Positions 15,476-22,112 of a DNA stretch of 64,000 nucleotides are shown one piece after another. The notes beneath the pieces were generated by a model. That model ran no database searches, had not been told where the DNA came from, and was given only the letters and a program-made list of their open reading frames with translations. This DNA comes from an uncultured SAR86 cluster bacterium (GTDB taxonomy: Bacteria; Pseudomonadota; Gammaproteobacteria; Magnimaribacterales; AG-339-G14), in assembly GCA_902570035.1 (NCBI GenBank), contig CACFWO010000005.1:1-64000 (forward strand). Direction: 5' to 3'. Made by a program: the position numbers and the translations under genes. Numbering within the stretch: position 1 is the stretch's first letter; each line of letters opens with the position of its first letter.

Positions 15476-16720
15476 CTATATTTTTGAGAACACTAAAGAT
15501 GCGTTCGTTCCACCAAAACCAAATGAATTATTCAGAACATAGCTAATTTCTTTTTCTTGAGATTCATTAGCAACATAGTTAAGTTTTGGAGCATCTGCGT
15601 CAAGATTATCAAGATTTATAGTTGGAGGGAGACGATTATCTCTGAGACTTAGAATAGAAAAAATAGATTCAATTGCACCCGCTGCACCTAAAAGATGACC
15701 CGACATGGACTTTGTAGATGAGACAGCAATTTGTTCTTTAGAAGTAGAAAAAATATCAGCTATCGCGTTTGCTTCAATGATATCTCCTAAAGGTGTAGAT
15801 GTTCCATGAGCATTTATATAGTCAATTTTAGAGCTATCTAAATCTGCATCCTTTAATGCTGAAATCATTGCCTGTTTCGCACCTTTCCCGTCTTCAGCAG
15901 GAGCTGTCATATGAAAAGCATCAGAACTCATTCCAAATCCTGATACTTCTGCATAGATATTTGCAGATCTTGCTTTAGCATGCTCGTATTCTTCCAATAC
16001 TAAAACACCTGCACCATCGCCTAAAACAAAACCATCTCTATCTTTATCCCACGGTCTGCTGGCTTTTGTAGGATTTGCGTTATTTGTAGATAAAGCTGTT
16101 AATGCCGAAAACCCTCCCAAACCAAGCGGAGTGATAGCCATCTCTGATCCGCCGGTGATCATGACATCGCAATCACCATGTGAAATCGACCTAGCGGAAA
16201 ATCCAATGCTGTGATTTCCGCTGGAACAAGCTGTAACAATAGACAAATTAGGGCCGTGCAATCCAAATTCTATGGAGACCAAGCCAGAAACCATATTTAC
16301 GATAGCTCCTGGAACAAAAAATGGTGAAATCTTTCTAGGACCTCTCTTATCTAAAGTAAGAGCATTTTTTTCAATGGTATCTAAACCACCGATGCCGGAT
16401 CCTATCGAGACTCCTATTCTCGAAGAATCGATGGAATTTAGCTCCAAGCCAGAATTTTCAATTGCATGTTTGGAAGCAACTAATCCATATTGAACAAATT
16501 CATCAACTCTTCGCTTAGTCTTTACATCCAAATGATTTACATCATCAAAGTTTTCTACTGGAGCAGCAAATTTGGTTGGGTAATCTGTTACATCGAATTT
16601 AGTTACGGTCTTAGCGCCGCTTTTACCGGCTAAAATATTTTGCCATGTTGTTTCTAGTTCATTACCCAGTGGGGAAATGATACCCATGCCTGTAACTACA
16701 ACTCTACGAGATGCGGACAT
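15476..16720 (-). CDS. fabF: Beta-ketoacyl-ACP synthase II
   Basis: RRVVVTGMGIISPLGN, VTACSSGNHSIG, NAHGTSTPLGD, STKSMSGHLLGAAGA. Confidence 0.96.
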   Translation of the reverse strand: MSASRRVVVTGMGIISPLGNELETTWQNILAGKSGAKTVTKFDVTDYPTKFAAPVENFDDVNHLDVKTKRRVDEFVQYGLVASKHAIENSGLELNSIDSSRIGVSIGSGIGGLDTIEKNALTLDKRGPRKISPFFVPGAIVNMVSGLVSIEFGLHGPNLSIVTACSSGNHSIGFSARSISHGDCDVMITGGSEMAITPLGLGGFSALTALSTNNANPTKASRPWDKDRDGFVLGDGAGVLVLEEYEHAKARSANIYAEVSGFGMSSDAFHMTAPAEDGKGAKQAMISALKDADLDSSKIDYINAHGTSTPLGDIIEANAIADIFSTSKEQIAVSSTKSMSGHLLGAAGAIESIFSILSLRDNRLPPTINLDNLDADAPKLNYVANESQEKEISYVLNNSFGFGGTNASLVFSKI

Positions 16721-16738
16721 GAGAGAAATTGAATGGAA

Positions 16739-16972
16739 TTAAGATGCAGATTCTATGTAACTGATAGCATCTTGAACAGTTGCTATTTTCTCAGCTTCTT
16801 CATCAGGAATTTCAATTTCAAATTCCTCTTCAAAAGCCATTACAAGTTCAACAGTATCAAGTGAATCTGCTCCTAAATCGTCTATAAAAGAAGCTGTTGT
16901 AGTAACTTCTTCTTCACTTACGCCTAATTGTTCGCAAACAATTCTCTGTACTCTTTCTTGTGTGCTGCTCAT
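16739..16972 (-). CDS. acpP: Acyl carrier protein
   Basis: [33 protein letters not shown]. Confidence 0.97.
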
Positions 16973-17049
16973 AAATACCTCTTTAAGGTTTGAAAGTTTT
17001 CGAATTATATACCTAGAAGATAAGTTTTTTAATTTTTTTTATGCATAAC

Positions 17050-17784
17050 CTACATATAAAGTCCACCATTTATATGAATGGTCTGACCAGTAATGTAATT
17101 TGCTTCATCAGAAGATAGAAAATAAATTAAATCAGCTACATCTTCGGTAGAACCTAGCCTTCCTAGAGGAATTTGGTCTGACATAAACTTTAAAGTATCT
17201 TCATCCATACCTTTGATCATATCTGTCTCTATGAAACCTGGAGCAACGCAATTAACAGTTATATTCCTCGGCGCCAATTCCCTGGCTAAAGACCTTGAAA
17301 ATGCTTCTAAACCTGATTTTGCAGCTGCGTAATTAGCTTGCCCCTTATTTCCAATTGCTGCTGAAGTAGAAGAAATATTAATAATTCTTCCAGATTTATT
17401 TTTCACCATTTTTTTTGAAAAAAATTTCAGTAAAGAAAAAACAGAGCTTAGATGAACCTGAATTACCTCATCCCACTCTATATCTTTCATCCTCAGAAAA
17501 ATATTATCTCTTGTTATACCGGCATTATTGACGACAATCTCTGGATTGATACCTTTATTCTTCAACGTATCAAATAAATTTTCAATTGATTGCTTATCAG
17601 AAAGATCAAGTTGTATTCCAAAGCCTCCTCCAGATGATTCGGATAAGATTCCATTTATAACATTAACGCCTTCCTCAGAAGTAGCCGTTCCGATCACAGG
17701 AAACCCTTTAGAAGAAAATAACTTCAGTATGCTTTGACCAATGCCTCTCGAAGCACCGGACACAAAAACATGTTGAGAATTCAA
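17050..17784 (-). CDS. fabG: 3-oxoacyl-ACP reductase
   Basis: GASRGIGQSI, NNAGITRDNIFLRM, YAAAKSG, ITGQTIHINGGLYM. Confidence 0.95.
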   Translation of the reverse strand: MNSQHVFVSGASRGIGQSILKLFSSKGFPVIGTATSEEGVNVINGILSESSGGGFGIQLDLSDKQSIENLFDTLKNKGINPEIVVNNAGITRDNIFLRMKDIEWDEVIQVHLSSVFSLLKFFSKKMVKNKSGRIINISSTSAAIGNKGQANYAAAKSGLEAFSRSLARELAPRNITVNCVAPGFIETDMIKGMDEDTLKFMSDQIPLGRLGSTEDVADLIYFLSSDEANYITGQTIHINGGLYM

Positions 17785-17791
17785 AACTTAA

Positions 17792-18001
17792 CTATTCAGG
17801 AGTATTTTGTTCTTCAGTGTCTTCTTTGATTTTTACTTCCATTACCTTCTTGCCTTTATAAAAACCATCTGAAGTCATGACATGACGCTGATGACGTTCT
17901 CCTGAAACCTGATCGGTAGATAAGGTTGTATTTTTTAGAGCATTGTGGGACCTACGTGCTCCTCTTCTTGCTCTAGATACTTTACTTTTTTGTACTGCCA
18001 T
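17792..18001 (-). CDS. rpmF: 50S ribosomal protein L32
   Basis: [22 protein letters not shown]. Confidence 0.95.
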
Positions 18002-19231: not shown

Positions 19232-21289
19232 ATGAAAAGAATGTTAATTAATGCTACTCAACCAGAAGAGCTTCGCGTTGCCATGACAAGAGGAGATTCC
19301 CTTTATGATTTGGATATTGAAAATATTAATGAGGTTAGAAGGAAGGGAAACATCTACAAAGGCATTGTTACTAGAGTGGAACCAAGTTTAGGGGCTGCTT
19401 TTATAAATTTTGGTGCAGATAGACACGGTTTTCTGCCCTTCAAGGAAGTTGCACCGCAATTTTATCCAAAAGATAAAAAAGGAAGATTATCTATCACCGA
19501 TTGTCTATCAAAAAATCAAGAAATTATTGTTCAAGTTGAAAAAGAAGAACGAGGAAACAAAGGTGCAGCTCTCACTACTTTTGTCAGTTTAGCTGGAAGA
19601 TTTTTGGTTTTAATGCCGAACAACCCAAAAGCTCAGGGCATCTCTAGAAGGTTGAACCCTTCTGAAAGAGACACTTTGAAGCAAAAAGTTTCTGCTCTAA
19701 ATATTCCTGAAGAAATGGGGATAATTGTTAGAACAGCTGGGGAAGGAAAGGAATTAACCGAATTAGAATGGGATTTAGATTATTTACTTAAAGTTTGGGA
19801 TGCAATTTTGGAAGCAAATCTTCAAAAAAATGGCCCTTTCTTAATTTACAAAGAAAGTGATGTGATCATTAGATCTCTCCGGGATTATGTCAGAGAAGAC
19901 GTTGATGAAGTTTGGATAGATACACAGGAAGCGTATGACCAAGCCATAGAGTTTGTAGATAGAGTCATGCCAGAACAATCAAACATCATAAAAAGATATG
20001 AAAACAGTCTGCCTCTTTTCACTCGATATCAAATTGAATCTCAAATAGAGACTGCTTATCAAAGAGAAGTAAAACTTGAGTCAGGTGGATCAATAGTAAT
20101 TGACGATGCAGAAGCCTTAGTTGCAATAGATATAAATTCATCAAAAGCAACTTCAGGCAAAGATATTGAAGAAACTGCAACGCATACTAACCTTGAAGCA
20201 GCGAGAGAAATATCCAGGCAGTTGAGACTCAGAGATATTGGCGGTCTGGTAGTTATTGATTTTATTGACATGATGAATCTCGAAAATAAAAGAAAAGTGG
20301 AGGATGAAATGCGAAATTCTCTCTCAGCGGATAGAGCGAGAGTGCAAATTGGCAGAATTTCAAGATTCGGTCTTCTTGAACTTTCTAGACAAAGACTAAG
20401 ATCTTCTTTGAAAGAAAGATGGACACAAGATATCAATACCCTCTCAACTGCTGTACTAAGATTAATCGAAGAAGAAAGTAGTAAAGATAATACAGGAGAA
20501 GTCAGAGCAATCGTATCGCCATCAATGTCTGCTCTTTTATTGAATGAAAGAAGAATAAGACTTAACGATATCGAAGCAAGAGCTAACTTAAAAGTTACTG
20601 TTATAGCTGATCCCATTCGTCCAGATACGAGATTTGAAGTTGTAAGATTAAAAGATGGGGAAATAATTGAAGAGGAAACAAGTTCTCACATACAAGAACA
20701 ATTAGAGAAAGATTCAATAAGTTCTCCTGTTGCAAGGAAGGAGGAAAAAGCTGCTGTTAATCTGATGCCATCCTCTAGACCTAAAACAGGTTTGATATCT
20801 AAATTGATGAACATCTTTAAAAGTAACAAACCTAAAGGAAAGAAAAAACCAAAAAATGTAAGAAAAAGAAATCCTAGAAAAACTCAAAATAAAAAGCATC
20901 AGCCTAAGCAAGATGCTAGAAGAAATTCTAATCAAAAGAGAAAGCCTTCTAACCAAAAGAAGGACCAGGTTAAATCTAAGGCAACGACGAAGAAAGATTC
21001 AGCAAATGAAGCACCAAGGAGAAAAATATCAAAACCAAAAAAAGATAATACACCTGCTGCAAAAAAAGACTCTGAAGCAAAACTTCAATCTGGTGTAGCA
21101 ATAGGTAAAGTTAAAGAAACTAAAAAAGAATCAAAATCTAAAGTTACTAAGAAAGTTGCTAAACCAGTGAAATTATCTAGACCTAAGAAAGTTGAAGAAT
21201 CCAAAAAGGTTGAAAAAGAAGAATCGGTTGTAGATCAGACGCTACATGCGGGCGATATTAGAGCCTCAAACGATCCAAGAAATAAATAA
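19232..21289 (+). CDS. rne: Ribonuclease E, zinc-link motif absent
   Basis: MKRMLINATQPEELRVA, S1 domain, IVRTAGEGKE, ALVAIDINSSKAT, GGLVVIDFIDM, RFGLLELSRQR; Lys/Arg-rich C-terminal tail. Confidence 0.96.
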   Translation: MKRMLINATQPEELRVAMTRGDSLYDLDIENINEVRRKGNIYKGIVTRVEPSLGAAFINFGADRHGFLPFKEVAPQFYPKDKKGRLSITDCLSKNQEIIVQVEKEERGNKGAALTTFVSLAGRFLVLMPNNPKAQGISRRLNPSERDTLKQKVSALNIPEEMGIIVRTAGEGKELTELEWDLDYLLKVWDAILEANLQKNGPFLIYKESDVIIRSLRDYVREDVDEVWIDTQEAYDQAIEFVDRVMPEQSNIIKRYENSLPLFTRYQIESQIETAYQREVKLESGGSIVIDDAEALVAIDINSSKATSGKDIEETATHTNLEAAREISRQLRLRDIGGLVVIDFIDMMNLENKRKVEDEMRNSLSADRARVQIGRISRFGLLELSRQRLRSSLKERWTQDINTLSTAVLRLIEEESSKDNTGEVRAIVSPSMSALLLNERRIRLNDIEARANLKVTVIADPIRPDTRFEVVRLKDGEIIEEETSSHIQEQLEKDSISSPVARKEEKAAVNLMPSSRPKTGLISKLMNIFKSNKPKGKKKPKNVRKRNPRKTQNKKHQPKQDARRNSNQKRKPSNQKKDQVKSKATTKKDSANEAPRRKISKPKKDNTPAAKKDSEAKLQSGVAIGKVKETKKESKSKVTKKVAKPVKLSRPKKVEESKKVEKEESVVDQTLHAGDIRASNDPRNK

Positions 21290-21290
21290 T

Positions 21291-22112
21291 CTATTTAAGA
21301 CTATTTAGGTAATGTTGAATTAAATCTCCTGAAATAGATACGCCTGGTGGAGGAGTATTAGGTAAATTATCAACTTCAAACCATTGAGCATCATCTATCT
21401 CATCATTATCTGGAGTTATCTCTCCAGATTTGTATTCAGCAAAATATCCAAGCATTAATTGACCCGGGAAAGGCCAAGACTGACTTTGAAAATATTTAAT
21501 ATTGTGAACCTCAATTCCAACTTCTTCTTTGACTTCTCTTTTTAAGCAGGCTTCGGCACTTTCTCCAGCCTCAATAAAGCCAGCAATAGTGCTGTAGAGA
21601 TTTACTGGAAAATTTTTGTTATGTGCCAATAAAATACTTTTATCTTTATGAATTAAGGTAATAATACATGGAGAAATTTTTGGATATACCAACGGTGAGT
21701 CACAATTTGGGCACTTCAATGCCCTTTCTTTTTTATCAAGTTGTAATTCTGATCCACAAAAACCGCAATATTTATTTGAGTCTGACCAATTAACTATCTG
21801 AAATGCTCTAGAGATGGCTTCGAATAGCTGCATATTCATCACAGAAAATAAAGCTCTTAAATCGGTAAAGGTTGTATCTGGAATCATTGTTTGTTCGTTT
21901 GAGACAGACACAGCATAAAGGGGTGCGTCATCTAAATATCCAATGAAGTGTCTACTTTTTTCTTCTAGACCTGACCATTTCATTTCATCCTCAGTAGCCG
22001 GGCGGACTGAAGATTCTTTTAAAAAGTGTAATAACTTTGAATTAAATACAGGAAAGTACTTTGACTCTTTGGACGTATCATCTATAAAATTAGCCGGCGT
22101 AAAAATATTCAT
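21291..22112 (-). CDS. nudC: NAD(H) pyrophosphatase / RNA NAD-decapping Nudix hydrolase
   Basis: CGFCG...CPNC zinc ribbon, Nudix box [23 protein letters not shown], NudC motif [14 protein letters not shown]. Confidence 0.93.

Follow-up and report, generated by a model that had tools for sequence, protein, structure and literature searches.

The DNA analysed here, called the window, is a stretch of 64,000 nucleotides from an uncultured SAR86 cluster bacterium, a gammaproteobacterium. It carries a gene for RNase E (rne), an open reading frame of 685 amino acids identified by profile matches and by matches to the sequences of solved structures (Table 1). The catalytic-domain profile PF10150 (RNase_E_G) scores 326 bits against a curated cut-off of 25.5, TIGR00757 scores 487 bits against a cut-off of 326, and the PF20833 and S1 profiles also match. 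In a phmmer comparison with E. coli RNase E of known structure (2vmk, 2bx2), residues 1-499 are aligned with an E-value of about 1e-161. The NCBIfam full-length RNase E equivalog cut-off is missed (642 bits against 908); its 1068-position model includes the long C-terminal half of the E. coli enzyme, which is absent from the SAR86 protein. This restricts the equivalog label and leaves membership of the Rne/Rng family intact. RNase G belongs to the same family and has the same catalytic site, but its profile scores much lower than that of RNase E, and the RNase G equivalog cut-off is missed as well (NF008689, 304 bits against 594). RNase W/FAU-1 shares an RNase E/G-like fold and gives a partial structural match, but it has another active site and domain set (PMC11602121) and is 16–21% identical. 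The window's genome (1.14 Mb, 87.5% complete) contains one RNase E/G match; neither a second RNase E, canonical or otherwise, nor an RNase G was found in it. The nearest public loci encode RNase E that is 97–100% identical.

The neighbourhood consists of a divergent rluC, followed by genes for L32, fabG, acpP, fabF, mltG, tmk and holB (names assigned from translations). The E. coli rne locus has the same divergent rluC, L32 and fab genes, and the SAR86 gene is syntenic with it. In the window, the L32 gene adjoins fabG, acpP and fabF without plsX, fabH and fabD, which in E. coli separate L32 from fabG. Convergent with rne is a gene for a NudC-like NADH pyrophosphatase, whose four-Cys zinc ribbon is intact. 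NudC takes NAD caps off RNA, and the NudC of the window would thereby yield 5′-monophosphate substrates for RNase E. Within the window, Rfam gave no match at the gathering threshold, and promoter and terminator scans gave no excess over chance.

Table 1. Features of the rne locus, with nucleotide positions in the window.
Feature	Position	Strand	Remarks
L32, fabG, acpP, fabF	15476-18001	-	adjoining genes
RNase E (rne)	19232..21289	+	685 aa
S1 domain	19337..19579	+	residues about 36-116; boundaries mapped from E. coli; contains the sole Cys (Cys91)
5′-sensor region	19580..19867	+	residues about 117-212; IVRTAG kept
DNase I subdomain	20060..20404	+	residues about 277-391; catalytic Asp300 and Asp343 inside
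Replacement linker KERWTQDINTL	20411..20443	+	residues 394-404; at the E. coli CPxCxGxG zinc-link site
Small domain	20432..20671	+	residues about 401-480; PF20833 on residues 400-471
Segment-A-like amphipathic helix KTGLISKLMNIFKSN	20783..20827	+	putative membrane anchor
NudC-like NADH pyrophosphatase	21291-22112	-	four-Cys zinc ribbon

The SAR86 protein resembles the E. coli RNase E catalytic domain (2BX2, 2VMK) in domain order, catalytic Asp pair, 5′-sensor, S1 domain, DNase I subdomain, small domain and gene neighbourhood. Asp300 and Asp343 correspond to E. coli D303 and D346, and the catalytic and 5′-sensor residues are invariant in the SAR86 sequences compared. Profile and alignment thus agree with an earlier, sequence-only reading of this DNA, which had found the catalytic aspartates, 5′-sensor and S1 domain kept. 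It is chiefly through the DNase I subdomain that E. coli RNase E forms its dimer interface (PMC2631609). The small domain is also kept and is not unusually divergent; relaxed evolution of this domain was considered and rejected, its divergence not exceeding the level of divergent zinc-link relatives. The C-terminal region is about 185 amino acids long, compared to over 500 in E. coli. It includes, after the segment-A-like helix, a Lys-rich tail that falls far short of the E. coli scaffold region in length. All four SAR86 families have such a segment-A-like amphipathic stretch behind the catalytic domain, which suggests that membrane attachment of RNase E is probably retained.

In E. coli, one zinc is common to two protomers via their CPxCxGxG motifs, and mutation or deletion of the motif prevents tetramer formation and lowers activity (PMC2631609). 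The SAR86 protein differs from E. coli RNase E in having no such motif and a linker that is 12 residues shorter. The largest gap of the phmmer alignment is the E. coli zinc-link segment, and multiple alignment reveals one clean 12-residue deletion compared to gammaproteobacteria with a zinc link. The resulting junction is LRSSL-KERWTQDINTL-STAVLRL (residues 389-410 are LRSSLKERWTQDINTLSTAVLR, about nt 20396-20461). The earlier observations that KERWTQDINTL stands in place of the zinc link, and that the protein has a single Cys elsewhere, are thereby confirmed, the sole Cys being Cys91 in SITDCLSK of the S1 region. The linker of this type, common to SAR86 families f1 and f3 (see below), contains neither Cys nor His, so no alternative metal site is visible there. 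Judged by its sequence, the window protein is a member of the Rne/Rng family without the zinc link, as the CPxCxGxG motif is missing.

An AlphaFold2 monomer model (pLDDT 78, pTM 0.54) has 2bx2 as its best structural match, and the E. coli fold is kept in the model, with the DNase I subdomain lying 1.5 Å from that of V. cholerae. The linker is of low confidence (pLDDT below 50 at residues 395-398); as modelled, a short helix at residues 393-397 would run almost straight into the small-domain helix at 401-417. Superposition of the whole chain is poor, with an rmsd of about 16 Å, and domain placement in the model therefore carries little meaning.

Loss of the zinc link extends throughout SAR86. 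Of 203 SAR86 genomes, 155 gave an RNase E match, among them every one of the 40 with a completeness of at least 90%; the other 48 are drafts of lower completeness. The linker was read in 90 genomes from all four families of the order (31 in f1, 26 in f2, 20 in f3 and 13 in f4), and none of the 90 contains CxxC there. The f1 and f3 linkers share an ERW-QD pattern. The f2 linker is mostly NE(S/T)YDI(E/Q)HVLVRGP (the YDxxH type), 6 residues shorter than the zinc form, and the f4 linker is NDLMGKT(I/V)W, 7 residues shorter. In 7 of the 20 f3 proteins, there is no Cys anywhere in the open frame. A sequencing or assembly error, or an oddity of one genome, was rejected because every other f1 genome read has the same linker and the ERW-QD pattern recurs in f3. 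The RNase E of one relative, L165 (G028:C1:403000-405800), is interrupted by in-frame stops, for which faulty sequencing or assembly is the probable cause.

Good conservation of the motif has been described for both alpha- and gammaproteobacteria (PMC12510024), and a survey of gammaproteobacterial RNase E in which SAR86 is not mentioned relied on it to recognise the zinc link (PMC4435900). In the present survey, gammaproteobacterial genomes were searched with a profile of 72 positions covering the zinc-link region, and 316 of 322 gave a match. The 27 low-scoring or non-matching genomes were re-fetched, while high-scoring genomes were judged by score alone. Among these 27, four gave no match and one had its main RNase E cut by a contig end; all readable linkers contained CxxC except that of L183, a 1.2 Mb genome. 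Within the 322 gammaproteobacterial genomes, the zinc link was thus found missing only in SAR86 and one other reduced genome. Among 241 alphaproteobacterial genomes, in which the linkers of low scorers were read, CxxC was kept except in SAR11, L209 (1.1 Mb), L221 and L224; the last two showed nothing but a divergent RNase E/G-like protein. L183 and L209, single genomes each, encode RNase E without CxxC at the zinc-link site. Genome reduction alone does not explain the loss, because many alpha- and gammaproteobacterial genomes of 0.6–1.6 Mb keep CxxC.

SAR11 (Pelagibacterales) has lost the zinc link as well. The zinc-link profile matched 113 of 118 of these genomes with E-values of about 1e-8 to 1e-11, but most matches stop at or before profile column 33, the first Cys, and the few that extend beyond it do so at low score. 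None of the 23 SAR11 sequences read contains CxxC at the site. As in SAR86, the SAR11 linker is shorter than the zinc form (by 11 residues) and has a Trp near the same place, but SAR11 RNase E is a separate lineage in the gene tree and its linker is less constrained. The Rickettsidae, including Pelagibacterales, have been noted for a short RNase E (PMC5436854). No published report of zinc-link loss in SAR86 or SAR11 was found in the open-access literature, to which this search was confined, subscription papers lying outside its scope. Caulobacter crescentus RNase E is comparable in that no binding of zinc was observed in vitro (PMC12510024); unlike the SAR86 protein, it still has CxxC (CEHC), which is important there for condensates and disulfides.

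The history of the loss was examined with a gene tree built without the linker columns. In the first tree, f1 with f3 (support 100) and f2 with f4 (support 97) each formed a group, and the two groups were not joined. After removal of nine long-branch rows, all SAR86 sequences formed one group with support 85. This removal was decided after the first tree had been seen, and a single SAR86 origin is therefore likely rather than established. The zinc-link state changes four times on the reduced tree, which fits separate losses in SAR86, SAR11, L209 and L183. Transfer between SAR11 and SAR86 was tested as a clade of SAR86 f1/f3 with SAR11 and was rejected (p-AU about 1e-15); by this tree test, the SAR11 loss is independent of that in f1/f3. 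The likeliest history on the sequences is that the SAR86 ancestor lost the link once and that its descendants then diverged to give three types of linker.

The new linkers do not have the appearance of decayed sequence. Among 48 distinct f1 and f3 sequences, the E, R, W, Q and D of ERW-QD are invariant or nearly so, and conservation averages 0.80 over the compared region. In f1 and f3, the nonsynonymous/synonymous ratio of codon differences is 0.36 in the linker compared to 0.76 elsewhere, as raw pairwise counts on related sequences rather than a formal selection test, and the linker ratio is lower in the same direction within each SAR86 family. Because the linker is under tighter constraint than the remainder of the catalytic domain, SAR86 linkers look like a working replacement. 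The SAR11 linker is less constrained than its surroundings (1.71 compared to 0.80), with one linker Trp kept in 95% of the sequences.

These data are best read as an RNase E with normal catalysis and a quaternary structure that would be independent of shared zinc. The ordinary, single RNase E of SAR86, in which the shared Cys4 zinc clamp has been deleted and a short, conserved, cysteine-free linker stands in its place, probably assembles without zinc. An altered assembly had been proposed in the sequence-only reading; what stands of this proposal is a quaternary arrangement that would do without shared zinc, because the known interprotomer ligands are lost. The E. coli enzyme pairs through hydrophobic contacts both at the DNase I subdomain and at the small domain, and neither pairing changes much from one state to another (PMC2631609). 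In SAR86, the large domains would still pair via the DNase I surface, and the small domains would still join dimers. Linker contacts around the invariant E-R-W and Q-D may fix the large domain relative to the small domain in place of zinc, and RNA cleavage would then proceed without structural zinc. Since motif loss in E. coli abolishes tetramers at a cost in activity, compensation in SAR86 is an assumption of this scheme.

The main rival explanation is a simple dimer joined through the DNase I subdomain, in which the tetramer has been lost, the loss is tolerated by slow-growing streamlined cells, and the linker is a mere spacer. The failure of E. coli motif mutants to form tetramers (PMC2631609) agrees with this, as does the weak constraint on the SAR11 linker, and the title of a paper cited in PMC6538622 describes a minimal RNase E peptide that lacks the tetramer domain and keeps core catalytic functions. 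SAR86 linkers, however, are more constrained than the remaining domain, and the small domain is kept without unusual divergence. A plain dimer is thus a tentative alternative, somewhat doubtful for SAR86. Replacement of zinc by another metal site, at least in f2, is suggested by an invariant Asp and His (DxxH) in the shortened linker, present in 26 of 26 f2 sequences (L132-L151, L166-L171) with the same spacing as CxxC. It is ambiguous, though, whether DxxH aligns with CxxC, and the linkers of f1/f3, including the window, and of f4 have no His or such pair, which makes this explanation unlikely.

Two further explanations concern the cause of the loss. SAR86 and SAR11 are both open-ocean lineages without the link, as would be expected if zinc were being saved in zinc-poor surface water. 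Yet G006, a SAR86 genome of the same family, keeps zinc-ribbon motifs in at least 10 proteins (ClpX, NudC, DnaJ, DksA, NrdR, MetRS, IleRS, TopA, Fpg and RecR) in a check that covered 1.15 of its 1.19 Mb. Pfam confirmed these protein families, with the zinc domain itself over the cut-off for ClpX, NudC, DnaJ, DksA and NrdR. The window's own NudC and HolB retain Cys clusters, and half of the SAR11 genomes are described as retaining high-affinity uptake of zinc (PMC4771312). General zinc economy is an improbable cause, because a genome of the same family keeps so many zinc-ribbon proteins. The small genome and short C-terminal region might also point to a decaying, non-functional RNase E, but the gene's presence in every near-complete SAR86 genome, the invariant catalytic residues and the constrained linker make this scarcely credible.

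For the zinc-free assembly preferred here, the clade-wide natural loss in SAR86 and SAR11 would mean that evolution found working alternatives to the zinc link. There is an even chance that the two abundant ocean lineages independently rebuilt the assembly of their only RNase E without shared zinc via cysteine-free linkers, three of them in SAR86 (the f2 DxxH being perhaps a new metal site), and that the zinc link is an exchangeable assembly device. These natural linkers are material for testing the purpose of the tetramer, and the finding touches RNA turnover in very numerous ocean cells.
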